Origin: Agroathelia rolfsii
Lineage: Eukaryota; Basidiomycota; Agaricomycetes; Amylocorticiales; Amylocorticiaceae
Assembly: GCA_018343915.1 (NCBI GenBank)
Contig: JABRWF010000001.1
Span: 2,852,001-2,916,000, forward strand
Direction of reading: 5' to 3'
DNA: 64,000 nucleotides
Shown: one piece after another, positions 2,089 to 61,239 of the stretch
How positions within the stretch are numbered: position 1 is the stretch's first letter
How the letters are laid out: each line of letters opens with the position of its first letter
Notes under the pieces: generated by a model
What the model saw: the letters and a program-made list of their open reading frames with translations, nothing else
The model's database searches: none
What the model was told of the DNA's origin: nothing
Position numbers and translations under genes: made by a program

Positions 2089-5000
2089 ATGCTGCCCAAG
2101 GTCGCTAATCAAATATTACACGCTTCATCGCGAGCAGTCGCTGCTGCTCAGTATCAGTCTCATACACTTCGCAATGTCCTTCAACTTCAGACTTCCTCCG
2201 GCCAGTCTTCTTCAGGTAGCATCTGGAACGGTGTAGGCTCTTCCAGCTCCAGCTGGGGTAGCAATGGAAGTGGAACAGGCCCAGGTGGTCACAAATTCAA
2301 TCCCGGCAGTCGCTATTATAGCAGCTACGCTGTTCGTGTACCCAATCTCTTCACTGGACATGACCCCAATGCTAATTAAAAAAATTTCTTACTTGTTGTT
2401 ACCAGGCCGCTAGCCGTGCTGTCACACAGGCCAACGTGTCCTCTTCAGACCTCGACGGTTCTTTTGTCGAGTCTGATGAAACTGAGGAAGCTCAAACACG
2501 TCCTTCTGCTCGCTCTCGTCGTACTGGGTCTGGGCTACGTGGACGAAGCCATAGCATTTCCCTTGGCACGCGTGATCATTCAGAACGCTCAGAACTAGGT
2601 GTACTCAAGGCGGTTCAACTGCATGCTCGTGCCAAACATACACTCCTGGGTTCCCATGTCGAGGAGAATGATTCGATACCCCAATCTGTCCATACCCGTC
2701 ACAACTCTACTGCCACTGCTTTCGCCGACATTGACTTATCCACGCTATCTGCCGCTGAAGAACTTACCACCGTCGTATCAAAGGATTCCCCCGCCTCTCG
2801 ATCTAATTCACGCATACCTGCGCTCCCGGAAACCGCCACTATTCGAGACATCAATTGTGCTCGTCAATCGGGTGATTATGCTGCCGTCCTGGATGCGGTT
2901 GGGCGCCTTCGTCTCTCCCCAGAGTCGGTCACGGTACACGAATTAAATGCCGCCCTCGACGCGATCGCAGCTACGAAACCTTATCTCGAAACACTGTCGC
3001 CACTGGTTCAACTCTACAATGATTTCGTCACTGGTGGCCAATCACAGATTCTGCCCAATGGTCAAACGTATGGTATCATGCTCCTTGCTTTGGGATCGCA
3101 AGATCACAAGGCGCGGGGTGTCATTGCGTCTCACGAGTCGGCCATCCGTCGTGCTCGGCTGTTAAAGTCTAAGAACGAATCTGTCTTGGAATTGCAGGCC
3201 TCGATCAAGCAACTCATGGAAGAGTCACAATCGGTTTATTCAATGGCTATCACGCTCTTCGAAGCAGCGTCTGCACGCAATGCCATGATACCCATCGAAG
3301 TTTATACGTCCATGTTGCGGTCATGCGCTCTCCGCGGGGATATTGACAGGGCCATCACCGTATTCGCTCAACTGGAAGCCCAAAAAACTATCCGGCCCGC
3401 TGCCATCGTTTTCGCGCATCTCATAACCGCATACATCAACGCTCGTGATCTTGCCGGTGCCCGCTTGGTTTTCAAGGAGTTCAGAGAGGCTTCGCAACAA
3501 GGGCGCCTCATTTGGAGCACGGACACAGCTTCCGCACGACTTGCACGCGAATTCGTTTGGCACAAAATGATCGATGCTCACTTTGCGTGTGACGATGCCC
3601 CTGGTGCCCTCGACCTACTGGAACAGATGATGGACTCCCCAGAGATGAAATACAGCTCTGATAAATTCGTCCCCGGCAATCCTCCCCTTCCTTCGCAGCT
3701 CACATTTACACGCATCATTACAGGATTTTGCACCGTAGGCGACTATAGCTCGGCACTGGTCTGGTACAAGCGTTTGCTGGATGAATCGACTACTTCTTCG
3801 GCTACCTCTACCAGTTCGCGCGATGCCACCCTACTGGAGCGTACGGCTTGGACCCATCTTTCTAATGGCCTCCTAGAGGAAGGCAGGGTTCCCGAATTTT
3901 TGGATCTTTACAAGGCGATCGTACTTCGTGCACCGAGTTTTTTGGACAGCGATGATCGTTATCTGCTTGCCTTACATGTTGCTTGGTATGTTCGCGACAA
4001 CAAGGACTCGCTCGACCGCGCTGAGGCCATCTCCATGCTGAACGTTACCGCTGATTTCTCGCTCGTCACCCGTGTACATCACAAGGACAAGGATGCTATG
4101 TACCTCGTGACAATCATGAACATTGCCGATTTCCTTCGGAAGGCTTATTTGGCTCTTGGGGAAGTCGAAGGTTCAGTTGCCCTTGTCGAAAAGGCTCTTC
4201 TGGTCGCTCGTGTTCAGATGATGCATGGGTCAGTCGACGAACAATTACCCGCAGCTCAAGAAGCCGCCTCCGGCGCAGTGGCCCTTGTCAGCAGGACCAT
4301 CACAGGTTTCTCTACCCGTCAACTACAGCCATTAACGTTCGCCCTTGGTGTCAGGCTCTTGCGTCTTGCCGCAGCTGTCGCTTTGCAGCCCGAAGCAAGC
4401 ATGGCCTCACTCTTCTATCATAACGTCTACCAGCAGGCTAATACGCAGGATTTCAACACGCTCACCAAACAAGAATGGCATTCACTCATCCTCTGCGCGA
4501 ATCTCGTCGATCTTTCTGCCCTTGCCCACGTTCTCAAAGATCTTTCGCAATCCCAAGCGGCCGCATCCTTCTTCCAGGACGCGGAGATCGTTGCTAGTGT
4601 GGCAGAAACCATTCATAGCATCCATAATAGTGATGATTTGGCTAGGGTGCTGTCCCAACTCCCCTCTGACCATGAGGCAGCACTGAAGCGTCGAGAGGAG
4701 GATACCGATTCGGTCGTTTCTTCTTTGCCCTCGGACACGCTAGTGGGAAGCTCTGATCCATCATCTCCCGTAGTCTCGTCATCGATCCAATTTGATATCG
4801 CAGCTAGCCGAGCCATCGACGATGCATGGAAATCCGGCAACTTTGACGCCTTCGCTACGTACAGGCAAATCGAGGACATGCTCGCCAGCGGTAGGCACCC
4901 TACCCATGTCGCCATCAGCCGCACCATCAACTCTCTTGGCCGTCATGGCGCTATCGACAAGATGCGCCGCTTGTACGAGGTCGCGCAGGTGATTTTGGCT

Positions 5001-6447
5001 GTCGCACCGAGAAAGCTTCGCTTCAAGTCGTGGTTGATGGTTGAGTGTCAAATGGTCATCGGATATGCCCATGCGGGTAACATGGACGCAGCCCTCATGC
5101 ATCGTGCTCGCATTCTGGAGCAAGGGCTGGTGCCCACCTCGGATGCCTACGGTAGTCTGATCCAGAACATCAAGGATACCACAGACGACGCCTCCAATGC
5201 CTTGGGTCTGTTCCAAGAGGGTCTTGCGCACGGTCTCCAGCCCAATACGTACCTGTATAATACGATCATCTCCAAGCTGTCCAAGGCGCGCAAGGCGGAC
5301 CAAGCGCTCGAACTGTTTGAGCAGATGAAAGCACAGGGTGTACTGGCGTCGAGTATTACCTACGGTGCTATCATCGCCGCGTGCTGCCGTGTTGGTGATG
5401 CGCAGTCGGCGGAGACGCTCTTCGCGGAGATGACTGCCCAGACGAACTTCAAGCCGAGGGTGCCCCCGTACAACACGATGATGCAGCTCTATGCGCATAT
5501 CAAGCCTGACCGTGAAAGGGTACTGTTCTACTTCGACTCGATGGTTCGGAATGGTGTTTCTCCTACGGTTCATTCGTACAAGGTATGTCTTTTTGGTACT
5601 GATACCTACTTTGCCAACTTACCCTTCAAATAGCTGCTTTTGGATGCCTATGGTACCATCGAACCCGTGGATATCAACGGCATGAACAAGGTCTTGAAGG
5701 ATATCGATGCCAACGTCGGGCACATCCAGGGTGTGCACTGGGCGTCGGTCATTAACGCCCATGGCTGCGTCAAGAAAGATCTCGACCGTGCCATTGAGAC
5801 ATTTGAGAATCTCCAATCAACTTCTTACAACAACCCCCTCCCCGACGCAATCACGTTTGAGGCGCTCTTTAACGTTCTTGTCACCCACCGTCGGGCCGAC
5901 TTGTTCCCCCACTATCTTGAGCGTCTTGAGAAGTCGGGTATTCACATGACGGCCTACATTGCCAATCTCGTCATCAAGGGCTATGCTCTGGGTGGCCAAC
6001 TGGATAAGGCGAGGGTCTTCTTTGAGGGCCTGTCGGATCCGCCTGAAGGTGTTGCCGCGCCCGGTAATCACGCTCCCCATGCAGGCGAGGTTTTGGAACA
6101 AGTACCTGTCTCAGCACCTGTCTATCGTGAGGTTAGTTGTATCAGCCATATACAGTGGTTCAAAATTGCTGACATGATCACACGCGTAGCCCTCAACATG
6201 GGAACACATGGTTCGTGCTGAACTCGGCGCTGGTGAACGTGAAAAGGCTATTGCTCTCTTAGAGAGACTCCAAGCCAGGTACGTCCTAATGCCTTTCCAG
6301 TCTCGCCGAACAATGCTTTTCCTAACATACATACCTTATAGAAAATTCCCTGCTGCGGTCTACAATCGCATTAGTGGCATCATGCTCGACGATGACACCG
6401 TCTCCCCCTGGCCAGCTACCCCGCTGCCAGGCGTGACTGTGGCATGA
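2089..6447 (+). CDS. Pentatricopeptide repeat (PPR) protein, probably mitochondrial
   Basis: Five exons (2089-2331, 2406-5582, 5634-6131, 6190-6278, 6342-6447) give 1,370 residues. The N-terminus is rich in A, S, Q and R and lacks acidic residues for about 50 positions, which suggests a mitochondrial presequence. A serine/glycine linker follows. PPR helical hairpins are spread over the rest, for example EVYTSMLRSCALRGDIDRAI, NTYLYNTIISKLSKARKADQ and SITYGAIIAACCRVGDAQSA, with the typical 35-residue spacing. Fungal PPR proteins of this size bind mitochondrial transcripts for stability or translation. Which transcript, and whether this matches a named yeast protein, cannot be said. The ATG chosen is the first in frame. 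A TTG nine bases upstream is not a likely start. Confidence 0.9.
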
Positions 6448-7340
6448 AAGAACATGGAAAGGGATTACTACCACGTATTGGGATCTTGTTTTGATTTATC
6501 GGCCCTGTTATCATTCGTATTTTGCCTTCAAAACGCTCGTTTTCTGGCTTTGCGCTATTCGTTTGATTCTTTTGCTAGTCAATAGCGACTGCTTTTTTTT
6601 TGTTTTTGTCTTTGGCTTTATCTTACACTTCACGAACTTTGTACGATTACGATTAGATTATCACTGTATCATAGCTTACATACATACTAGAGACACACAA
6701 TTAGTAATCATTGAAACGGTATACATGTCTATAGTGCATGGGAGGCGATATGCACTGTGGATATTGTCGTTCGACTCTTCAGAGACAAAATAGGTAGGCA
6801 GAATAACGTGACGCCGTGACAAAGATGGTAAAAGGAACTTAAAGGGACTGCAATTCTAACTTCGAGTTTTTGAAATACTCTAATGCTCCTCATTATCTTG
6901 TGAAGTCAAGGTTGCGTCATTTTGATACTGAAGCACCTCATGGTCATTTATCAAGACGAAGACCTCAGACCATCGGCTAGAGTATAATGCATACATTATT
7001 GACGAGATGCACAGATCGAAAACCGAATAGAGATTACCATGTGATGAATCTTTTTATTATTATTATTATTATTAATTACGTTTGTATACCGCATCATGTA
7101 CTGAAGACAAACTACGGTGTAAGTAGTTGAGAAGTAGGGTTAAATAGTAAGGGAAGTATGGCCATGTGATGAATCTGGCCCCACAACTGGAAGAACAAAA
7201 ACCATTGTCGCCTTCGTCATGATCTATGGCGCAATTAGTACCAACAGATCGTCATCCACAGGAGGGGTTTTATAAGTGTGAAAAGACTGGACTCCCTTCA
7301 TTAGGTTTACTGTATACTCAGAAGTCAAACAGCTGCTCTC
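6448..7340. other. Long intergenic region with a TTA microsatellite
   Basis: Nearly 900 bases, AT-rich, without a supported gene. It contains a short run of TTA/ATT trinucleotides around 7050-7075. A TATAAG element near 7271, about 70 bases before the carbonic anhydrase ATG, may be that gene's TATA box. Confidence 0.5.
7271..7276 (+). promoter_or_regulatory. Possible TATA element of the carbonic anhydrase gene
   Basis: TATAAG lies 70 bases upstream of the ATG at 7341. The distance fits a TATA box with a short leader, but the surrounding DNA is AT-rich and chance occurrence is likely. Confidence 0.25.
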
Positions 7341-13472: not shown

Positions 13473-13583
13473 GGCGAGATGGCCGAGCGGTCTAAGGCGC
13501 CAGACTAAGGTAGACCAACCTGCCTTGCAGGTGATTACACAATCTGGTCTTTCGGGGCGTGGGTTCGAATCCCACTCTCGTCA
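13473..13583 (+). tRNA. tRNA-Leu (AAG), intron-containing
   Basis: Type II tRNA with acceptor GGCGAGA/TCTCGTC, A box TGGCCGAGCGG, a variable arm, and B box GGTTCGAATCC. The anticodon stem CCAGA/TCTGG surrounds a loop with anticodon AAG (13507-13509, read as IAG after deamination) and a 31-base intron at 13511-13541. The intron contains a small hairpin (CCTGC CTT GCAGG), typical of the tRNA splicing endonuclease substrate. TTTTT-like T runs follow within 30 bases. Confidence 0.94.
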
Positions 13584-32195: not shown

Positions 32196-33092
32196 CTACA
32201 AGAATTGCGAGAAGTCCCCAACACCAGCATGAGCGGCGAGTACCTGAATCTGGTTGTCTAAGAGGTCTATGGAAGCGTAAATACATGTAGAATATAGCGT
32301 AAGAATAATCGTCAAACGAATGGCAGCCTTGGAAAGGGCAATTTTCGACCCATGGGCGGTCGTGTAAAGAGGATCCATCTAGAAATTTCCAACAAAAAAC
32401 CCAGTATGAAAGCAAATTCTATGGCCCTCTCCTTACACAGCCATGGCCTGCCGGTCCTGCGATTCATACATTTGTCGCAAGACGTTCGTGAAACCGATTT
32501 TGCCAAGCTGCGCGTTTTGCTCAAATCGCTGAACCAGCCAGTTCTCCAGCTTATCGGCAACACTTCGCCATAGAGCCATCCGAGCTTGGATTTCGGCGGT
32601 TTGCAAGAATTCTGTCCTTTGGCTATTTGGCATTGGCGAGTATCGGATTTGCTCGTAACATGTTGCGAACTGGGACAGGGATAGGTTGACAGAGGTGATG
32701 GTAGCGGTTTGCGTCGCGGGGTCAACGAACGAGATTTCTCGTACAAAAGCATCCTCGGAGCCGCCAAAGAGCTACAAGCCATGGTTATCAGTGTGGAGTA
32801 AGCTACAAATCCACCAATCCCAATGGCTTACCTTGACAATCCAAACCGGCGCCTTCTGCTTGCATCCCAATATGCGCTCTGTCCGTATGACGCCTGTCTT
32901 TGGATCCACAGAACGATCCAAGACATCTATTGTCACGACGTGGCTACATTGAGGGTTGGGATATTTATGCCACATGCCGTTCACAACATGTGTCCAGGGA
33001 TGACTAGGAGAAAGCCCAGTAAGTCTCAAGCATCACACAAAGCAGAGCAAAATCGATTACTCGTAGCTATATTTCTGAGAGAAGAAATGCAT
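32196..33092 (-). CDS. UPS2: Ups2/PRELID3-type phospholipid transfer protein of the mitochondrial intermembrane space
   Basis: PRELI/MSF1-domain proteins carry phosphatidylserine or phosphatidic acid between the mitochondrial membranes with Mdm35. Exons 33061-33092, 32832-33003 and 32439-32771 give the full PRELI domain: MHFFSQKYSYD, HPWTHVVNGMWHKYPNP, IDVLDRSVDPKTGVIRTERI, then LENWLVQRFEQNAQLGKIGF. The IDVLDR and CKQKAPVWIVK segments are closer to Ups2 than Ups1. If the third exon is read through, translation stops at 32433 after 180 residues. A GTGTAAGG donor at 32438 and an ATTTCTAG acceptor at 32379 define a 60-base intron that would instead add an exon (32196-32378) with a hydrophobic segment, giving 239 residues, close to yeast Ups2. 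I favour the longer form but both are possible. Confidence 0.85.
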
Positions 33093-33455
33093 TATGACAG
33101 CAAAGAGCAAGAGTATAGGATACTAATGCCGATGTGAGAGATAGAGTACAAGGAGAATATGGAGCGGAGCGGTGTCTACAAATCCGACCTGTGATTCCTA
33201 CTCCGTAAGTCCTACGGCATTTGTAGAACTCCGCTCGGGCCGGCTAAAAACACTTATTGATTGGCCAATCCCAAGCGCTGTAATTCTCAATTCACTTGTG
33301 CTGTCGGATATACGCTCCAACTATCTGAAATATACACTCGTAGTACGACATCAGAAAAATGATATTAAGCTTAGCAATACAAGTCATTCATCTCTACAAT
33401 CGCATCTAGTAAATATTACTCGAACATATTTCTAAATAGCTGTGAGCCAATAGCA
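33093..33455. other. Promoter of UPS2 and 3' flank of the metallo-beta-lactamase gene
   Basis: No supported gene. AT-rich between 33280 and 33440. Confidence 0.45.
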
Positions 33456-34916
33456 TCAACGATAGGTGTTGTCAACAACAGTGCCATCTGGTGATATCAG
33501 GATGCGAAGACCATCATGAGCTGGACGCAGCCAGATTGACTCCCCATCTTCGACCAAGTCAATCCCCTTTCTTTCGTTATCCGAAAGATTTGGATAAAGC
33601 TGCTCCCGCTCCTGGGACTCCATGCCGACTAGCTCACCAATAGTGGTATACTCTTCGTGAGATAACTCATGAGAGAAACCAGTGAGATATGTCCGCTGAG
33701 CGCCAAGCCTCCTTGCAGTAGAAACGGACTGAGAAAGACCTAAATGAGATGTATGTTTTTGCAGTCTAAGGCAGTCCAATATAAACACTGGTGTGGTCGC
33801 TTCTTCAAGTAGAAGGCTCCAAACATTCTCAGGTATATGAGAAGTGTCGGATATGTAGACAAAATCGCGGAATTTGAACCCTAGGGAAAAGTAAGGAGTG
33901 ACAGCCGTAGCAGATACAGCCTGTAGTTTAACGTCGAGTTCGTTTGGAGCGGCTTCCTGGGGATGAGCGTTCTCAGGTGGTGTGGGCACAGTGCCGGTGG
34001 ACGGCGTATGAGCCGGGCTAGGAAGGTATGTGACTTCAGGAGTCGGACAAACAGAGAAGACCCGACCGTGATGTACTGGTTGGGTCCAGGGTGCCATGAG
34101 AAAGCGGCAATGATAGAGATGACAACACACACCAGAAAAGGGGGTGACCATTATGCCAGTATCAGCTATTTCAAACGATGTTTGATCATCAATAACATGC
34201 CATTTGAATTCGGGAACCTAAAAGAACTTAAGAAATAGCCGGTAGGAAGATTTATGTACGTACGTCTCCACCACCCGAAGCATATTCCTTTGCAACCAGG
34301 TAAGGGAATGATCTTTGAACCTCAGTAAATGTCGAGCTAGACACATATAATTCAATGTGCGACTGAATGTTATTGTGAAGCGTCCAACCTATAACGAATT
34401 AAGCTCAAGAAAGATCGGAGTCACGATCATCATGCACTTACCACGCAGGTCATCAAGACCATTCATGGCTATCAATTTTTTTATTGAATTTCGACGGGTC
34501 ATCGAGACTACAATGCCGAGCTTACCATCAGCATGTGCATGGGTTATAAGGACGGCATCTATCTTTCGAAGACCGTACTCAGGAAACCACTCAATTGCAG
34601 CTTCACGAAAGTTTTTCCCGACATCTATGACAATTGTTCTGAAGTTTCTGAATAAGCAACCATCATTAAATCAGGCACTGTGATATCGTTATACGCACAC
34701 GGGTTGACTGTCCTTCCCTTTACATCTCACGACAGCAGACGTATTCCGGCGAATGTTTTTCTTTCCCTCTGGCTTACGAGTAGAGAGACAAGTTTGGCAT
34801 GGCTTAGTGCCAGGCAGTGCGGTCAAGCATTCGATGTTGGGAATACTAGAAGAAGTGCCGGTGCCGAGGAAGATAAGCTCAGTATTGACAGAGTTCGTGA
34901 AGTTAGTCGAAGACAT
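33456..34916 (-). CDS. PhnP-like metallo-beta-lactamase-fold hydrolase
   Basis: The protein starts MSSTNFTNSVNTELIFLGTG. The metal-binding HxHxD motif is spread over an intron (ITHAHADA joined to MNGLDDLR), a signature of the PhnP/cyclic-phosphodiesterase branch of the metallo-beta-lactamase superfamily. Further matching segments are GTKPCQTCLSTRK (a CxxC in the N-terminal loop, as in PhnP), FVYISDTSHIPE (bridging Asp), and HTSHLGLSQSVSTARRLGAQ followed by TYLTGFSHELSH (C-terminal histidine motif). Such enzymes cleave cyclic phosphodiesters, but the substrate in fungi is not known to me. The start is the first ATG before the first beta strand. About five short introns are required and the exon borders are approximate. 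Confidence 0.85.
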
Positions 34917-35448
34917 GGTAGGAGAAAGCGTCTAGAGACAATAGCCGGCAGTTGGGGCCTCCCACATACACAGATTGTACATGGGGTTTATAAATCATTT
35001 TCGTGATCCCTTGATGGGTATTTCAGCTTATCCGAAACAGGTAACCGCGATCGGAAACGGGCAATCGCCGTGGCGTAATTATATGCCACGCAACGCCATC
35101 TGAGTAATGCTGTGAATGTAGCGCGATGATATATTTGATTGCGAAATACAGTCATCATCAACATGGTCGTACGATCGAAAGATGAGGAGAGGTCGAGGGT
35201 GACATATGACATCCTCGAAGCATTCGCCCTGCCTAGCTGTCAAGGACCGAACAGACAAGCTAGTGAATATGGCACTTCTCCCGGATTGGAAGTATTTTTC
35301 AGCTTCTTATCATAATCATGGGTCTTATCATGATGAACGATGGTTCAAAAAGACCTCGACCAGGAACTGCATCATTACGCCGCCGGTAATTCATTTATAA
35401 TTCTGATCCTACACATGCTACATCGAAACAATAAAAAAAAACCTTCCC
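34917..35448. other. Spacer between the hydrolase promoter and the DRG1 3' end
   Basis: No supported gene. A 64-codon plus-strand frame at 35206-35400 has no recognisable motif, and I treat it as chance. Confidence 0.45.
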
Positions 35449-37621
35449 TTATTTCGTGAAAACTGTATCGGATTGCATTTGAGTACTCTCTGTGTAGGGT
35501 ATGGACGAGAGTGCTCACTTGATACGACATCTTCGTCTTGAACAAGATGGTTGAGACTGACTTTTTGAGCATGGGGAGAAAATTTGGATGATTTTCCCTG
35601 TGATAATCTACGTCAGAATGACCATTATACATAGTACAAGTGTATATTTCGCCATACCCTAGAAGTAATAGGTGGTTAATCATCTGTGAAGGAGATCATA
35701 TAAAAAGAGAGACTTACCAGACAAGGCCATACTTGAAATTTTCGGCCAATGATCGGTGAATACCATTGCACACAGTCTATATCAATTCCCATCAGTAAAT
35801 TTTTTGGAAGGGAGCTATCAGGAACCGATTGGGGCTGACTTCAATGGTAGCGCCCTTCCTCAAACACACAGGGTCATCTAGATCAGGGCGAGATCCGCGT
35901 TTCTTAGTATATACCTTGACGAGTCCTAATTCTGCCCACATGCGTTCTACCAGGTAGTCCAAACTACGAATACAAACGATAATTGAATCCCAGAAGCGGA
36001 AGGATTACGGGACACTTACTTGAGGTCCATTTCACAGCTAATGACAACTGTGTATGGTTCACGAGCCAGTTTATCCATCTGTTCCAAACTAATGGCATCG
36101 ATTTTGTTGTAGACATCTATAGGGAAATTTTAGGGGATTGGCTTGAGTGAAAAAGTTCAAGATATTACATAGACAAGGAATGTATTTTCGTGTTCCTAGG
36201 TGCAGATAGTAAGGCATCGTATAGGTAATATATAAGATTCGGATTTACCGATGAGAACATCAATGAACTCGTCCGTCGTGATCTACTCACAAGATGAGTA
36301 AGAAGCAAATCCATATAAGGATAAACATATACATCTTCTCGAATCATGATATCGCAGTTATGCAGTTTATCTGAAGGGAGTGGACCTGAGCAATGATGCA
36401 TCGAAGAACTGGACTACTTACATCCTGCAAGGATGGTACGGATAGTTTTTTCATCGGTTTTGGTCAGCTTTACTGTCGTGTTCAGCTAAGAATATATGTT
36501 AGTCGCCAAGTGTTCAAATATTCATATCGATTCCAATAGCCTCACAGTAATCTAAAAAAATGGTTAGTGTGATTGAAATTCTTAGGTGTCAAAAAACCAT
36601 ACCCCGCCAGTTGTCTTTTTCTTGAACACGACGTCGGGTTTCCTCTTATTTAACCGGATACCGACCGCATCAAGCTCCTTTTCGAGTAGGAAACGCTGCT
36701 CCTCGGATTTGGTGGCGTCCAGCATAATTAGGATTAGATCCGCCGTCTTTGCAGCTATTGCATATTTAATATGCATGTTTCCATAAAACCAAGTTTGGAG
36801 ACTCACTGGAGACTACTTGCCGACCACGGCCTCGGCCTAAAGCCCGAGATTATTAGTCACAGTAATTGTCATGAAAAATGCTGCGATCATGCCTTCTGAG
36901 GCTCCTTCAACAATACCAGGCAGGTCAAGTAACTGAATGCGAGCTCCTTGATATTCGATAACACCAGGAATGGCCTAGAGAGTACTCTTGAGTGATAATA
37001 CTCTAGAGTATGCAACAAGTAACAAGCGCTGACAGTCAAAGTAGTGAACTCGTATGCAGCAGATTCGGATGCGGTGTGTGTTGTCTTGCTTAACAAGGTA
37101 GACTGATATTGTTTACAATTAATATATGACAATCCAGATAAGAATATTTTTTACTCTACCTTTCCGACAGAAGGGAATCCTATCAGCGCGACTCTTGCAT
37201 CTCCAGCTTTTTGAACATCAAAGCCAACGCCAACAGGTCCTGATTTCGACGTAGGCTCTAGTAGCTGTGCACGATAACGTGCAAGCTTGGCTTTCAAAAG
37301 ACCAAGATGGTACTCAGTAGCCTATGCACATGGCATGAAATGAGGCGATGGTGATGAATATAAGATCTAATCCACAAATAACCTTGTTCTTCTGTGCTAT
37401 GGCGGAAGAGTCAGATCTTACTCTTGAGAATTAGCCCAAGACCTTACTTCGAGCCATCTCGGCTATGAATGCACGACATATCAGACACAAATTCTCACTC
37501 ATTGGGAAAGCTTCATACCTTCAATCTCCTTGATCTGAGCATAGTCATTAGTGTACATCGAAACCGTGACAATACTCAAATCGATAATCTTGTTTCAATT
37601 TACTTTTTCTACCACGCCCAT
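35449..37621 (-). CDS. RBG1: Developmentally regulated GTP-binding protein 1 (Rbg1/DRG1)
   Basis: This TRAFAC-class GTPase associates with ribosomes and helps translation with its partner Tma46/DFRP1. Twenty exons join to 366 residues (human DRG1 has 367). It begins MGVVEKIKEIEAEMARTQKN. The G motifs are GFPSVGKST (G1), DLPGIVEG (G3), NKIDAI (G4) and the SCEMDLNLDYL region (G5). The TGS domain is split over the last exons and ends DEDVVSIFTK. The gene has 19 introns of 50-69 bases in 2.2 kb and several tiny exons: 16 (37519-37534), 15 (37448-37462), 14 (37383-37396), 6 (36546-36551), 1 (35658) and 14 (35449-35462) bases. The frame closes only if the single base at 35658 is an exon. Intron 7 (36837-36892) is GC-AG. 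A one-base deletion or assembly error is the main alternative. Confidence 0.93.
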
Positions 37622-38038
37622 AGCTCTTGAGGTATTTGGACACTATAATGAGTATTTTATGGCTTTGAAGTTTGAGGAAGACGTATGAATCGGGTTAGGT
37701 TTAGCAGGTCAAGTTCAAGTGAGTTGGGCAGAATCAGAATGAGAGGAATGCCAACTGAATGGCCAGCCTTTGCTTCCGTTTAAATGTATACCGAAGTGAA
37801 CACTATGCTATTACGTTAACGCTACTAATATTACCAAAACGCTATTTTCCGTATCGAACAGGGTATCCATGCGTCATTGATGCAGTAGTCCCAATCCCAA
37901 AAACATTGGTGCCAATATAAAATTACGAGACAACATCTTACTTCTAAAGATTTGTCAGAGAAGATCGCTGCTAAGCTCCAAGATTTGTAGGTCGATGCCT
38001 TATAAGCCGTCTGCACCTCTTCCTGTAGGAGTTGGAAA
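37622..38038. other. DRG1 promoter and PTH2 3' flank
   Basis: No supported gene. A 61-codon minus-strand frame (37831-38016) has no recognisable features. Confidence 0.45.
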
Positions 38039-39120
38039 TTACAGTAATTTTAGATGCCCTGTCACGCGATTGATCAAGCTCACGGGTCCTAGAGTAACGA
38101 AATTAGTTGAGGCCATAAACAGTCGAATTCCCGAGTTACCTGGGCCTATTCCAAGAACAGTACGACTTCCTGGTGCGACTTGTGTCCTTCCACTACAAAT
38201 AAATAATTCATAAATGGGTACATAATAGACGGTTTGTGGCTTCACTTACGCATCCTGTATTGAACGGGCGCATAGGTTAAGGCTTTTTGCAATTGCCTCT
38301 AATTCTAGTAAATCATCCTCCGAGTTTGCCTTCAAGCAAACTTTTGCTTGCCTAAAATGAGGTAAGGAAGGTCACTACGTATCCTCATTTATATCAAAAA
38401 GAGACACATTACCCCAGTCGCTCCCATTGTTTTATTATCTGGGATATTGTATGTAAGCCGAAGTACTTGAACAAATCGTGAATTGCGTGTATGACACACC
38501 TGTGGGTTTTTCTTGACTAATGTCTTATAACAGGCAAGCGTAGCATGACTTTTCGGAGTAAATTTCAACTCGAAAATGCACCAGATAAGCATTAGCCAGT
38601 TTACCTGCATCTAAAAATGGATTAGGACAAGTCGGTAAATGTATCAAAGGATACATACTGGGCTGCGATTTTGCCAGGTGTCATCTTGAGATCTGTTCTG
38701 ACAACAAGGACCTGTACAGAGGTGAAAGGGTCAGGAACATATCCCCACAACCATCCTTAAAATAATAACCAGGCTTACTAATTTGCATTGTTCGAAAGTA
38801 GATGCCTTCACTGCTTCAAGGGAGCCATCAGCAGCTTCCTCCTCGTCTTCATCCTCACTAGCTTCTGAGTCTTCTTCCGCATTATCCTTCTTTAATTCTT
38901 TGCTAGCAGCTTCATACGCGTGGGTTGTGTCTAGTTGCTTCTGCGCGCGCACATTATGGGAGCCCAAGTACCAGCCCAGACCAACAGAAGTGGTGACCAC
39001 AGCAAAAGTGGTAAATAGTATGGGTGGTGTAAGAAGAGCTAGATGTCCAGAGCTTTAGAATCTTGAAGTAGCCTGAATCTAAAATAGCAACACACAGTCT
39101 GAAACATGTAGATTCTCCAT
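38039..39120 (-). CDS. PTH2: Peptidyl-tRNA hydrolase 2, membrane-anchored
   Basis: Pth2 releases peptidyl-tRNAs from stalled or drop-off translation. The eukaryotic protein is often anchored to mitochondria. Nine exons (39096-39120, 38779-39038, 38659-38711, 38605-38610, 38500-38548, a 26-base exon near 38400-38425, 38250-38351, 38140-38192, 38039-38088) give 207 residues. An N-terminal hydrophobic segment ([20 protein letters not shown]) is followed by an acidic linker ([14 protein letters not shown]) and the Pth2 fold: [20 protein letters not shown], then [53 protein letters not shown] and VTGHLKLL. The 6-base exon ATGCAG restores the conserved QCSHA motif. The PTH2 and HAS1 ATGs are 264 bases apart and divergent. 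Confidence 0.93.
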
Positions 39121-39383
39121 GATTACGATTAAAAATGACGAATATGACCAGGAAATGTTAGTTCAGTTGCCGCCAGTGGTACGGCGAACGCGGTTCCGGT
39201 ACTTCGTTCGGAAGCAAAATCAGGAATATTTTGAAAAGTTCTTGAAGATTCATTTCACAAGTTGTTCACCAAACGCACCAACGGCTACACCACCGACAAA
39301 TACACAAGCTCAGACGATCTAACAATTCATCAGCCCGACATCAAAAGGAACGAACATCTGATTCTACCAATTTGTTGACGATT

Positions 39384-41379
39384 ATGGCTCCCGTAGACGA
39401 GTCCTCCCAGTCTACCTCCGCTTCTACCTCCAAACAGCCTGCAAAAACTAGTGATGCTGGCCAAGAGCGACCATCTTTCTCCTCGCTCGACCTTTCTGAG
39501 CCCACAGTAAAGGGTCTCGCCGACATGGGCTTTACGACAATGACTCAGATCCAAGCAAAAGCCATTCCTCCACTTTTGGCCGGCAAAGATGTTTTGGGCG
39601 CTGCACGAACAGGATCAGGCAAAACTTTGGCATTCCTCATTCCCGCTGTAGAGCTTCTTCATAGGTTGAAGTTCAAGCCCAGAAACGGTTTGTCTCCATT
39701 CGTTGCCCATGATTGGGGAGCGTTGCTTATTTGATTATCTAGGTACTGGTATTATCATCATCTCACCGACCCGAGAGCTCGCCTTACAAATCTTTGGCGT
39801 GGCCAGAGATCTTATGGCTCATCATTCGCAGACATTTGGCATTATTATGGGTGGTGCGAACTTGAGAGCAGAGCAAGATAAACTAGCTAAAGGTGTTAAT
39901 CTGCTTGTTGCGACCCCCGGTCGTCTGATGGACCATCTGGAGGTATATTTCTTCTTTCAACCAAAATCATGGACTGCTCATCTTATGATAAACAGCGAGG
40001 TGGATGGGTATACAAAAACCTGAAATCCCTCGTTATTGACGAGGCCGATCGTATTTTGGAAATTGGTTTCGAAGAACAGATGCATAAAATTATTTCTATG
40101 CTGCCTAACGGTATGAATATCTCTTCTCACTGCCTTTCGTCGCTCATGTACCAAATTGCTGTACAGAGGGTCGCCAGTCCATGTTGTTCTCTGCCACACA
40201 AACAAATAAAGTGCAGGATCTTGCGCGCATATCGCTTCGTCCCGGCCCCCTCTACGTTGATGTCGACAAGGACGAAGCATCCAGCACAGTCGCAACGCTC
40301 TCTCAAGGATACGTCGTTTGCCCATCAGATCGACGTTTCTTGCTCCTTTTTACATTCCTCAAACGGAATCTCAAAAAGAAGATCGTAGTTTTCTTCTCTT
40401 CTTGTAACTCCGTCAAATATCATGCGGAGCTGCTCAATTTCATTGATGTACCAGTACTTGATCTTCATGTAAGTGCAATATATCCTTCTAAACGTCCTTT
40501 ATTTAATTCCGTCTTATCATAGGGCAAGCAAAAACAACAAAAGCGAACACATACCTTTTTTGAGTTCTCAAACGCCGAGAGCGGTATTCTTCTGTGTACT
40601 GATGTTGCTGCCCGAGGTCTCGATATTCCAAAAGTAGACTGGATCATTCAGTACGGTTAGTAACAACTTTTATTAATACTTGGACTTCTGGATTTATGCG
40701 TTTCTCTAGATCCCCCCGATGACCCAAGGGACTATATTCATCGTGTAGGGCGTACAGCTAGGGCAGGCAAAGTTGGAAAGAGCTTGCTTTTCCTACTTGA
40801 AAGTGAGCTCGGCTTCTTGAGATACCTCAAGGACGCCAAGGTGCCCGTAAATGAATTTAGTTTCCCAGCGAATAAGATCGCCAATGTTCAGAGTCAGGTG
40901 CCTACTCCTTCCAGTTGCGTTATCTGTTCTTGGCTTACAACTGTTTTCCTTTCTAGCTCGAGAAGCTCTTGCAAAAGAACTACTTCTTGCATCAATCCGC
41001 TAGGGATGGTTATAGATCCTACTTGCAAGCCTACGCATCATACTCACTCAAGAAGATATTCGACATTAATGCTCTCGACTTGACAAAGGTTGGCAAGTCC
41101 TTTGGGTTCTCTGTACCACCACGTGTCAACGTGAACATGGGTGGCGGAACCTCTAGCAAGATCAACCACAAACGTCCTCGCGAGATCGATGCTGATGGTG
41201 ATGATGAAAGTGGGTCAGATGCGGAAGTGGAAGATGCCGGGGAGGAGGAAGTTTCGAGAAAAGCCGTCCCTAGCAGAAATGATGGCAAGGCAAGGAGGAT
41301 AGAGGTGCACGGGAAGAAAAAGGTCTCGAAGGAGGTGTATAGGAAGAATAATGACCGACAGAAGGGGTGGAGCAGATGA
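39384..41379 (+). CDS. HAS1: DEAD-box ATP-dependent RNA helicase Has1
   Basis: Has1 acts in the nucleolus in biogenesis of both ribosomal subunits and releases snoRNAs from pre-rRNA. Seven exons (39384-39687, 39743-39942, 39996-40110, 40167-40468, 40523-40655, 40710-40897, 40957-41379) give 554 residues. The motifs are a Q motif ([13 protein letters not shown]), AARTGSGKT (I), PTRELALQ (Ia), GG and TPGR (Ib), VIDEADRIL (II), FSATQ (III), FFSSC (IV), TDVAARGLD (V) and [10 protein letters not shown] (VI). The C-terminal [20 protein letters not shown] extension is typical of Has1. A basic and acidic tail ends [11 protein letters not shown]. It lies near UTP13, another ribosome biogenesis gene. 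Confidence 0.96.
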
Positions 41380-56036: not shown

Positions 56037-58108
56037 TTAATTAGCAACTGAAGGAGCTGAAGGATTCCGAGCCAGTGATCGTGCTGGTGGCCTTGACACT
56101 GCCCTTGGTGGTCGAGCAGGCGGTTTCACTTTTTCAATGGGCGCTACAGTGGAGTCACTGGCCTGAGGGCGTACGAAAAGGGAGCGTACGCGACGAATGC
56201 CACGAGTGACCATCACGCCGCATTGATGTACAGTAAAGACGACATACTGCAATCCAAGCATGATCCCAACAAATACGCACATGACAACTACCGCCGTAGG
56301 CCAAGTCGACCAAGCCACAATGAGGAGGAATAGCATGAGTGTTAAGGCGGTAATGAGTAGCATGAGCGCTGGTAAGCGAGCAGTAATGCAAAAGAAAAAG
56401 TAAGTGCCGAAAACGTCTAATGCTTTAAGCTGTTTCGTCAAGGCATAAGTGGTATGGATATGGAGGGTGGAAAACACACTTACCCTGAATTTATCCGCAT
56501 TTGCCCCTGAGTAGGAAAAGATTAACCAGGAATCAACCAAGATGCCCAAGCCCGACGCAATGCTGCCAACAGCGACCATGCGGATCGCCAGTTCGTTGAT
56601 AGTGAACAATGTACCAGAAGAGAAACCGAAAACAGCAGCAAAAAGACTATCATTGTAGGCAATGTCAGTAAAATCCTCAGAAAAAAGCTCTTTAATCCAC
56701 TTACGCAGATAATGAAACAAGCTAAAGAGGCTACCATTAGCAACTCCACATGAAATGGTATACATTACACTCACCGAAACACCGACATTCCACCATTCAG
56801 ACTGTATCTTGGAAAGTACATCCTCTACGGCAGAATCATCCCTAGCGCCTTTGAGATGACGATAGGGAGATACCTTTTCAATTACAACCTCGAACACGCT
56901 ATCCTGGGACCGAATGCTGTCCGTATCAAGGGAGTACTGAGGAAGTTCTGAGGCATAAATCTCTTCGACTCGTCCAATCCTAATATCATCATCCTCGCAC
57001 ACCACGCCGCTCACTATAAAATCAGGGATGGACCAAAAGTCTCTATTGGGGACAGGAGGACAGGATTCCGAGCTATTACACAGTCCCTCAGGCCCCAATA
57101 ATGGCTTTTCGGCCTCTGGCTCGGATAATAGCGAAAAATCGGACGAATGATCCTCTATATCCGACCATAACTTGAAGCCCTTCCGACGACGCACGCGTCC
57201 TCGAGACGGTCGCGCGATACTGTCACTATGTTGGCTCTCCTTAACCGACTTCCAAAGCGCTTCCTCAGGATGCACAGACGAAATGGGTGACATGGGTTCT
57301 CTGCCACCTACGCAAAAACATCCATTCAGAAATTGAGGGTAGCTCTAAGAAAATCCACTCACTTGCAAAGTCTCGTTCGCTAGAATGAGATCGTGAGGAC
57401 GATGTAGAAGCAACCGGCACCGTGGAATGTGACGGTGGAGTGATTTTGAGGATGATGTATGCTGCATTACGAGCATTGGATTGATTCTGGCGTTTGACTT
57501 TGGTTGCCGTATCGCATGGACCTAATTTCACTTCACAATCTGGTCTTGCGGTATGAACATACAATTTACGAAATTGCAAGACAATAGTGTATACGTACGA
57601 GACTCAGTGCCTTGTCTCTTTGCAAGTTCCGCCAAAGTGATGTTAGTCGCACAGACGAGCGAGCGTCTGCGACCTTTCTTTTTTGATTGGCCTTGAATCC
57701 AGATCTTGATTTGTAATTGCATGAACTCATGGACGTCATCTCTGTATGAACATTGTCAACCGTTGGACCCCAAATGCAATTATCCCACTTCGGTCATGAC
57801 TCACAGAATAACAGGGACCTTTTGATTAGGATTCTCCCCATTAACACCAAGGACAAGTTCGCGATCAGCACAATCCCGAGGAGTGAGTGTGAGGATAGGC
57901 CTCCATGACTTCTCGCGCCGTAACGTAGCGAGGCCCTGTGCACGAATAACTGGATCGAAATTATAAGCGCTTATTCACGGGCTAGAAGACGGACATGTGA
58001 AGTGAATCATACCATTTAACTGCCATGATCTGTGATATGCATATGTCAGTTCATAGAGTCTAAGTCGCTAAACGTGACTAACCCAGGTGGATAAATCTCG
58101 CGAGCCAT
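56037..58108 (-). CDS. C2-like domain protein with C-terminal membrane spans, function unknown
   Basis: The start is ATG 58108 (MAREIYPPG). A 17-base exon leads to a beta-rich segment resembling a C2 domain (VIRAQGLATLRREKSWRPIL, VPVILRDDVHEFMQLQIKIW, CEVKLGPCDTATKVKRQNQ, AAYIILKITPP). A serine-rich linker follows, then a charged region with a basic cluster (RGRVRRRKGF) and a long acidic/serine part. The C-terminal third carries four to five hydrophobic helices (GFSSGTLFTINELAIRMVAV; YFFFCITARLPALMLLITAL; TLMLFLLIVAWSTWPTAVVV; FVGIMLGLQYVVFTV) and a proline/arginine-rich tail. I do not recognise a named family. A tether or membrane contact protein is possible but not shown. Confidence 0.75.
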
Positions 58109-58698
58109 AGTTTATACCCGGAATAGTGGGCAGTGCTGGCAGCTGTATGGCGACGAGTAGGTAAACAGACCGGCGACGCTACGTCCAGCTAATTTTTACG
58201 CCCAACAATGGAGCTTGAGAGCTTTAGACAGGAGTCGGTCGAGATGGACTGCGGTGCCTAATAAACAGCTGTACGAGCACAGGTGACTGTACAGCATTGC
58301 ACTGCCGACCAATCGCATCATCATCACAGTGCACAGCAGATGATGCTGAGGAGTCCCTCCTCCAAATCTCTTATGTAATATCCCTGGTCCAAGAGTTATT
58401 CAATGCCAAAGTTGTAAATTGGTTGTACCCCAACTCTTACACCCAGTTACTGTGGCAAAGAATGTACCTATGAACAGAGAAATAGGCACAGGTCCCTCAA
58501 TGTTGTCACTTAAAACCTTCGTAGAGCCATTCAAACAATATATTTCTTGTTAGCAACCTCTCATGGCAGCGATCAAGCTAAACCCGACGAAGATACAGTG
58601 TACTACTAGTACACTCAGAGAACAAAGAACTGAACTGAGATCCGGTCAGAGTCATTATTATACAAGTTTGGTGATGTAGGCTTCCTATTCGGTTCATT
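58109..58698. other. Spacer between the C2-like gene and DAK
   Basis: No supported gene. It contains the promoter of the C2-like gene and the 3' flank of the dihydroxyacetone kinase gene. Confidence 0.45.
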
Positions 58699-61239
58699 TC
58701 ACTTTGAAATCACTTGTCTTATTCCATCCAGTAATGCCCAAACACCCCAAGCACCTGCCAAGGATAATAATATTAGAACACCTCGATCAGCTTTGACATC
58801 TCACAGCCAACCATACCTGGATCTGGTATATCAGATTCACTAAGTCCACTCTGCTCGACATATGCAGCTCTACCGGCCTTTGCCTCTAATTTCCGGGTCG
58901 CTTCAGTAGCATTTTTGGCCTGATCTACCGCTAAACCGAAATCGTTCGGAGAGGCTTTAAAGGCCATCACGAAAGCATCCAAAGGATCTACAAGGGTTCT
59001 TGAAGGTGGCCGCGCGCGAGTATATTGATACAGTGCCTGCAAAGCATAATTGGCTGCTGCTGCCCACACTGGAGGACTGGTTACGGCATGTTGACCATTT
59101 TCTTGTGCATAGGTGCGTAATGCAGAAACGAGGCCATTAAAATAGATGGAATACAAGGCACCGGAGGTCCCACCCATGACTTCCTCGACCTATGTCAGGA
59201 CAGCGCATCAAATTACTTTACGATGTACTTCGGGCTCGGGCTGCGATACTGACCTCCGTGGCGATAGAAAGTATTGATACAATGATGTCCTTACCATCTA
59301 TCCTCCCAGACGATAATGCAGTAAGGATGGCTATACAATATTTCATTATTTTCGTGGATTCCGGTACTCGGATCGAAAACAATCTCCCATACCTTCCGCC
59401 CCTGCACGTAAAGTCAGACCAGCATCACCATCACCCGCTATGGTATCACATTTTGTTATGTACGGCTCCGCAGCAATGACGCTTCGACAAGCTGCTGTAA
59501 TGACAGCTACCACTAATTCGGGGTCGCTTGCTTTTGAATATTGAGCTTTAGCGACAATATAGACGAATACAGGATCCATACCAAGTAAAACGGTCTCCGG
59601 AGCGCTTGTTTCAATATTCCCTTGATTTTTGGTTTGCGAGCGAGAAGTTGAGGGACTATCAGCAGAGCCTAATGATTCCTTCTCAGTGCCAAATCGCCAT
59701 TTCGAGCCTGGATCTTTTTCTTCGAGCAATTCAAGGATTTCAATTGACGATAAACCCGACGCTGAGTCTTTCCTTGGGAGTACAAGTAGAGTGAGAGAGA
59801 ATCCGGGCATGTTAAGAGATGTCTGAATTATAATAAATTATTTCCTTGTCACGATTCATTCCCAGATCCAGTCCTACATACCATGAATGTGCCAACCAGT
59901 GTTTTGTTGACAGAAAGTCTACTCTTCTGCTCTAGCCATAGGAGGGCGTCATTTGCGACACTCCCAAGCTCCAATTCGCTTAGGCCGCCGAGATTGTTAA
60001 CAAGGAGTACAACCTTATCATGTCCATCCTCTTTGAGAGACAGATACGATCTCTCAGGATCGTCTGTTGCCGTAAGCATAGTCATCATTTTGTCAATGAC
60101 CTCAAGCGATGATGGAATAGGGCGGATCCGAGCGAAGCCGGGTTCATTATGGATTCCTATTCAAACGTAAGAAGAGGGAATAGACGATGACGGAAATAGG
60201 TCTGCACCCATTCCGATTTCCATTTCATCGGGTGCGAGATGAGTCTCGGAAATATCCGTTCCAGGAAGCTGAAAAAATCGTTGAACATAGATTGAAATCG
60301 TTCAGAACCATGGTCTCAGAAATTATCACGCACATGACAGTGTCCGAGTCCAACGGCTACCGTGCCTACGTTTTCGGCAATATATTTGGCCGTGGCTTCA
60401 ACCTGATCGATATTCGCACCTCGGCTCGCAAGAGCACCAGCAATTTTATATACGAGGACCGTTCCAGCTAGGCCCCGACGACCTACAATTGCTGACTGGG
60501 ATCGGGGCACAGAGCAGTCGTCACCGACAATCAAGAATCTCACAGGAGCCGAAGAGGACGAGATGGACGAAGCGGCGTGTTTTTCCTTGACAAGACCAAA
60601 GTGTAATACTAACAGGTCAATCGTCAGATCTCTTTAAATATCTGATGTCAGATAGTCATCGCTGGCGTACCGTCGCCGGTATAATTCTTGACAATTATCA
60701 GTGTCCTGGAACACGAAGTGAAGTCAACTGTAATTCTTGACTACTAGGAATGAAAATAGTTACCCTGCAGAATTGGTCACTAGCTCAATTCCTCTGCTGA
60801 TCTGTCGTACGTTTGGAGAAGCAAATACATTGCCTAGATGACAACGATGATCTCAAATGAGACTAGTTCATAGGTTGCTCATGCGCTCATAGTACCTGTG
60901 ACAGCAGCAGTTAATATTCCAGGAGTCACCCAACCCGAATGAGCAGGTTCATGGCCTGCACCGCCGCCCGACACTAGGGCAACCTTGGAAGGATCTTGAT
61001 TCTTTAGATAGACAACTGAATTGGAATCAAGGACTCAGAGGTTTCGCATGGTGAGCCAAGACAGATTAAAGACCTCTAGATTCCTTGTCCAGCAGAATTT
61101 TATCATCTACGCGTACGAGACCACTTAGAGAGTCCAAAACGAGCTTGCTAGGGTCATTGACAATGTGCTTATCTAGGTAAATATTAAGAGCATGTTTAAC
61201 TTGAAGTATCAGCTTGAGCAGTTAGCTATACGAACCCAT
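58699..61239 (-). CDS. DAK1: Dihydroxyacetone kinase (DhaK-DhaL fusion)
   Basis: Dak phosphorylates dihydroxyacetone with ATP and so detoxifies or assimilates it. The N-terminal DhaK domain (MDKHIVNDPSKLVLDSLSGL, SGGGAGHEPAHSGWVTPG, NYTGDVLHFGLVKEKHAA, RGLAGTVLVYKIAGALASRG, and GLGHCH with the His that binds substrate covalently) is followed by the DhaL nucleotide domain (CDTIAGDGDAGLTLRAGA, ALSSGRIDGKDIIVSILSI, VEEVMGGTSGALYSIYFNGL, WGVWALLDGIRQVISK). Length is about 590 residues. The first coding exon is only four bases, ATGG at 61236-61239, with a 63-base intron (61173-61235). No other in-frame ATG joins in phase. The gene is divergent from DPM3. Confidence 0.92.

Follow-up and report, generated by a model that had tools for sequence, protein, structure and literature searches.

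A very probable single-nucleotide exon in the DRG2 gene of Agroathelia rolfsii and its likely conservation in Agaricomycetes

The DRG2 locus and its second copy

The window considered here is a 64,000-nucleotide stretch of the Agroathelia rolfsii genome. On its minus strand, from 37621 to 35449, 20 joined exons make up a coding sequence of 1,101 bases, that is, 366 codons and a stop. By sequence comparison the product is a DRG2/RBG2 GTPase, closer to RBG2 than to RBG1: its top relative of known structure is RBG2 (7nrc), with 475.9 bits against 401 bits for RBG1, and the name DRG1/RBG1 given in an earlier note on this DNA was thus wrong. Pfam recognises a GTPase domain, its C-terminal extension and a TGS domain. 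Wherever the names of the listed relatives carry a number it is DRG2 or RBG2, and the best named relative among the matches listed is that of Mycena crocata (92%). A DRG-like paralogue of 43-52% identity (G000:C3:4880834-4882209), found once, with DRG2 on two contigs, is a likely candidate for DRG1.

Towards the 3' end of the gene, exon joining places exon 17 at 35718..35776 on the minus strand, where it closes with ..CTTGTCTG at 35718, its last bases being the TG of the Trp336 codon. Intron A follows (35659..35717, 59 nt, GTAAGT..TTCTAG), and then a single G at 35658, the third base of the Trp336 codon TGG, which is assigned as exon 18 by exon joining, a listing of splice solutions and a second copy of the gene. 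Beyond it lies intron B (35598..35657, 60 nt, GTATGG..TCACAG). Exon 19 (35519..35597) opens at 35597 with GGAAAATC, its first codon being that of Gly337 (GGA, then AAA TCA), and exon 20 (35449..35462) includes the stop codon.

Other features of the gene and window may be recorded here. Exon 10 (36546..36551, minus strand), recognised by exon joining and through annotation errors in relatives, is a 6-nt microexon (ATTACT) that is present in both copies and constitutes a second hot spot of such errors. Intron 7 (36837-36892, minus strand) has a GC donor, GCATGA in the window and GCACGA in the second copy. A 111-base tRNA on the plus strand at 13473-13583, scored at 49.5 bits by Rfam and absent from the ARAGORN list, is possibly intron-bearing.

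The assembly (37.7 Mb in 8 contigs) holds one further close match to DRG2, on contig C2, which is ~91% identical to the window copy. It has the same 20 exons and the same AG-G-GTATGG arrangement, with introns A and B of 59 and 61 nt. Between the two coding sequences there are 47 differences, 44 at third and 3 at first positions of codons, none of which alters the protein. All four differences that lie 3' of the single base are silent with the G in frame, and each changes a residue without it. The 47 silent differences, together with this frame-specific silence, argue that both copies are under selection for a protein that requires the G.

Around the gene, window positions 5000-6500 map to C2 2762060-2763558 (93%), 33065-41071 to 2790000-2798000 (90.3%) and 58000-59500 to 2814943-2816456 (85%). 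Given this collinearity, C2 and the window's own contig, C1, look like two haplotypes. The interval 5000-6500 additionally matches contigs C6 and C7 at 69-70%, and the assembly looks like two haplotypes with a further related pair (C6, C7).

A single base between two introns

The earlier note proposed that the G at 35658 is an exon in its own right, flanked by introns of 59 and 60 nt in a gene whose 20 exons sum to 1,101 bases. These coordinates and sums are correct, and exon joining likewise returns lengths of 50-69 nt for the other 17 introns, as the note had stated. In both copies one base sits between the AG of intron A and the GT of intron B, and in both that base is required for the reading frame of the conserved protein.

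Splice solutions (ALTERNATIVES) were listed by removing one or two introns of at least 30 nt, running from GT or GC to AG, within 15 nt of the gap ends. Twelve solutions in the window and 14 in C2 restore the frame free of stops. YGLVWGKSS is obtained from one of the 12 and one of the 14, each time the solution with two introns and a one-base exon; the remainder insert or delete residues. Support for the single-G reading thus comes from its being the sole listed solution with this peptide, from its occurrence on both homologous contigs and from the annotations of relatives, which break at the same codon. The arrangement also exceeds chance expectation: an AGGGT cutting the gap into two introns of 48-70 nt arose in 1.4% of 20,000 dinucleotide shuffles, and in none of the 20,000 did the donor B and acceptor A of such a split equal or exceed the observed scores.

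Splice sites were compared with those of the gene's other introns in both copies, a set that is small and not independent, as it comes from the same gene. Two sites are weak against it: donor A, scored with CTG before it, is surpassed by 33/34 donors, and acceptor B by 32/34 acceptors; donor B ranks 20th and acceptor A 29th (17th in C2). Because of this weakness, splice-site scores were given no weight as support. The CTGAC put forward earlier as a perfect branch point is indeed present in intron B, 16 nt before its end, but the YTRAY pattern is non-discriminating: it is missing from 9 of the 17 other window introns and is thus uninformative. Scanning for YTRAY in intron A of C2 likewise gave no match within the range covered.

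The Trp336/Gly337 junction in related fungi

Listed relatives numbered 120 of 7,857 above threshold. Ninety-five were taken as genome-derived and 22 as transcript-like, the latter term denoting, on our reading of the labels, a source of lgn or jgi only, a contig shorter than 5 kb and an uninterrupted frame. P0012, P0014 and P0021 were excluded; the contigs of P0012 and P0021 measure 14.9 kb, and these two records may not represent transcripts. Among these listed relatives, annotation breaks at tiny exons, and most of all at the one-base exon. The Trp336/Gly337 junction is disrupted in 45/95 genome-derived and 1/22 transcript-like records, compared with 0-11/95 and 0/22 at ten interior junctions (5-8, 11-16). 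At the junctions flanking the 6-nt exon 10 the genome-derived counts are 21/95 and 24/95 (transcript-like, 0/22), at the last junction 28/95 (1/22), and at the four N-terminal junctions 10-26/95 (3-4/22).

The 117 named DRG2 annotations, 115 of them from Agaricomycetes, comprise 61 that are disrupted at the Trp-Gly boundary, 49 that are exact and 7 without the exon-17 peptide. Unnamed records within P0001-P0144 number 27: 25 exact ones, P0014, which does not reach the site, and P0074, which deviates. LVWGKSS is therefore read in 25 of the 26 unnamed, mostly transcript-like records that span the site, records whose gene structures are unseen. P0074, from jgi on a 1,378-nt contig, runs for 336 residues to LVW and ends after a further VSCLKQHAC; it looks like a product from which intron A was removed and intron B retained, but could also come from a species with a lone, retained intron after TGG. 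Exact and disrupted records occur side by side in six species (Agaricus bisporus, Agrocybe pediades, Abortiporus biennis, Lentinula detonsa, Mycena citricolor and Pisolithus croceorrhizus), and both records from Mycena chlorophos are exact. A search for DRG2-related loci found no relative among viral contigs, and among genome contigs 12 archaeal and no fungal ones.

The 61 disrupted models can be sorted by the kind of error, each reading being made back from the protein records, not from the DNA of the relatives. In 12 models (type a) an extra residue gives W-X-G, where X is Y, C, S, W or L and is encodable by TNN in 12/12, an outcome with a chance of ~3e-8 by residue frequency when species are treated as independent, which they are not. 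It is as if the donor were a GTNNGT right after TG, with the predictor shifting four bases to mend the frame. Ten models (type b) lose Val-Trp through use of the GT of the Val codon. Another 14 (type c) read W-V-x, where x is S, R or C in 11 models and L or M in the other three, all from Pisolithus species, as if a GTNNGT donor lay right after TGG. Four (type d) pass from W into apparent intron A, and in two of these, P0042 and P0085, the last residue ahead of GKSS is R, which is what AG+G would encode. Three (type e) stop at W, and 18 are of other kinds.

Taken over P0001-P0144, a residue other than G follows W in 36 records, 32 of which match one of two donors. These errors fit a predictor bypassing one missing base and point to two donors, TG/GTNNGT and TGG/GTNNGT; a lone intron at either position would need no such repairs. 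Within Lactarius, P0071 is of type (a), and P0048 and P0082 are of type (c), with an insertion running from V to Q before GKSS, as would be seen with a retained GT..CAG.

Type (a) errors are found in Agaricales, Boletales, Russulales, Polyporales, Hymenochaetales and Gomphales, and type (c) additionally in Sebacinales and Cantharellales. LVWG is normal in all eight named basidiomycetes outside Agaricomycetes, namely Calocera, Phaffia, Mrakia (with the upstream exon garbled), Mixia, Naganishia, Dioszegia, Kwoniella and Kockovaella, the last seven of which we take to lie outside the class. Disruption in 0/8 outside the class compares with 61 disrupted and 47 exact annotations within it (Fisher P 0.002, the species not being independent). 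Of the 108 Agaricomycete annotations in which exon 17 is kept, 47 are normal at the site, Tulasnella, Hydnum and Clavulina included; these 47 may be RNA-guided, or may come from species with simple introns or without the one-base exon. With so many mushroom gene models wrong at the same spot, the exon is probably old, shared and widely mis-annotated. Judged from the protein records, it is likely to be ancestral to Agaricomycetes and conserved across the class, and there is a good probability that it is kept in the DRG2 of each of the orders just named.

Alternative readings, splicing and known one-base exons

The sequence, the frame, the second copy and the junction-specific annotation failure in relatives are direct observations. 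We consider it very probable that the G at 35658 is a real single-nucleotide exon of DRG2 between two ordinary U2-type introns.

That the base is instead a regulated exon, skipped at times to produce a different C-terminus, is improbable. The frame that results from skipping is open through exons 19 and 20 (35449-35597, minus strand), so that a form with another C-terminus could be made, and this form, when typed out, still matches TGS in part (40.2 bits, compared with 66). However, each of the four sites 3' of the base at which the copies differ would alter an amino acid if the base were skipped, whereas all four are silent in the normal frame, and the skipped form is absent from the 26 unnamed sequences that cover the site. 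Read by eye, the skipped form would terminate beyond the normal stop.

An assembly or sequencing error, in which a G has dropped out where exon 19 begins and only one intron, of 120 nt, is removed, would suit the short run of G then A at that junction and would require only one pair of sites, donor A and acceptor B. This is nevertheless very unlikely, as the independently diverged C2 copy has identical bases, relatives from many genomes break at the same codon, and an intron of 120 nt would be an outlier beside the other 17. It is also highly doubtful that the gap is a single 125-nt intron whose donor is the GT of the Val codon. Such an intron restores the frame in both copies and is the model adopted by 10/117 named annotations, but the protein would lack Val-Trp (YGL-GKSS), whereas VWG is kept in 25/26 unnamed, mostly transcript-like relatives covering the site and in 8/8 basidiomycetes outside Agaricomycetes, and RBG2 of known structure reads LVWGSSAK. 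A 28-nt cryptic exon adding nine residues (VWRNIHLYY) between intron A and a 33-nt intron is extremely improbable, for although it is stop-free and in frame in both copies, it calls for a 33-34-nt intron in a gene whose remaining introns measure 49-69 nt, and inserts nine residues into a conserved junction.

If the G is a one-base exon, its splicing can be envisaged as follows. Introns A and B are both short and complete, and each could thus be recognised across its own length by intron definition. U1 bound at a donor spans positions -3 to +6. On donor B it would mask the AG of acceptor A, so that the two introns could not be spliced simultaneously and would be removed in succession; the same argument is made by the APC11 authors (PMC4674806). 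Removal of intron A first would leave CTG/G/GTATGG, from which removal of intron B would give TGG GGA (Trp-Gly); removal of intron B first would leave TTCTAG/GGGAAA. Either order would keep valid splice sites. On balance intron A may be expected to go before intron B, given its GTAAGT donor and its earlier completion in transcription. The splicing itself, the order of removal and the age of the exon are inferred. G is the favoured base on both flanks of splice sites, a point raised for the AGGGT of Fusarium (PMC12940212).

In the literature searched, nuclear one-base exons are those of plant APC11 (PMC4674806) and VPS55 (PMC8831610) and of CYP621A in Fusarium (Nelson and Syed 2026, PMC12940212). 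The earlier note correctly cited APC11 as known; it was aware of no fungal case, whereas that of CYP621A is already in print. The CYP621A exon, too, is a G between AG and GT (AGGGT) whose two short introns were read as a single long intron (139 nt in F. graminearum), and it is needed for the frame in a conserved motif and was missed by annotation. The two cases differ in gene and phylum, the base being the middle one of a Gly codon in CYP621A, from Ascomycota, and the third of a Trp codon in DRG2, from Basidiomycota. CYP621A is known from one genus and confirmed by RNA reads, whereas the DRG2 exon is predicted from DNA and protein records and would be class-wide.

The plant exons, reported as deeply conserved in land plants (PMC4674806, PMC8831610), resemble that of DRG2 in being constitutive or conserved, in keeping the frame and in being widely mis-annotated. 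In APC11 the base, an A, sits inside an intronic stretch of 422 nt and has been put to the test by mutation, whereas in DRG2 it lies between two short introns and the case is sequence-based. Fungal stwintrons (PMC5639578) are likewise pairs of neighbouring U2 introns that have to be spliced one after the other and may pass for a single intron, but there a splice element of the outer intron is interrupted by the inner one. Membership of that class was rejected for DRG2, where each intron keeps its GT and AG intact and one exon base separates the two. A one-base exon is also reported in mitochondrial cox1 of placozoans (PMC5436844), and the shortest reported exon of a Phanerochaete P450 is 6 bp (PMC1184071). 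No nuclear one-base exon in Basidiomycota was found in the openly licensed literature, mostly titles and abstract openings, and no report of a DRG2 microexon, or of a DRG exon in Basidiomycota, in the openly licensed literature. As far as these searches show, the DRG2 exon is not the first in fungi but is the first in Basidiomycota.

One-base exons reveal how little exon the spliceosome requires, and that of DRG2 would, if true, be the most widespread known in fungi. A class-wide exon could escape notice because the Trp-Gly codon is modelled wrongly in roughly half of the public annotations; in practical terms, 61 of the 117 named DRG2 models examined need fixing there. If it is shared by mushroom-forming fungi, it would offer a natural series of many species, in a conserved and intron-dense gene, in which to compare the order of removal, the strength of the signals and the loss of either intron. 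Where one intron had been lost, the other would be left at TG/G or after TGG, and the outcome would appear as a one-base intron slide.
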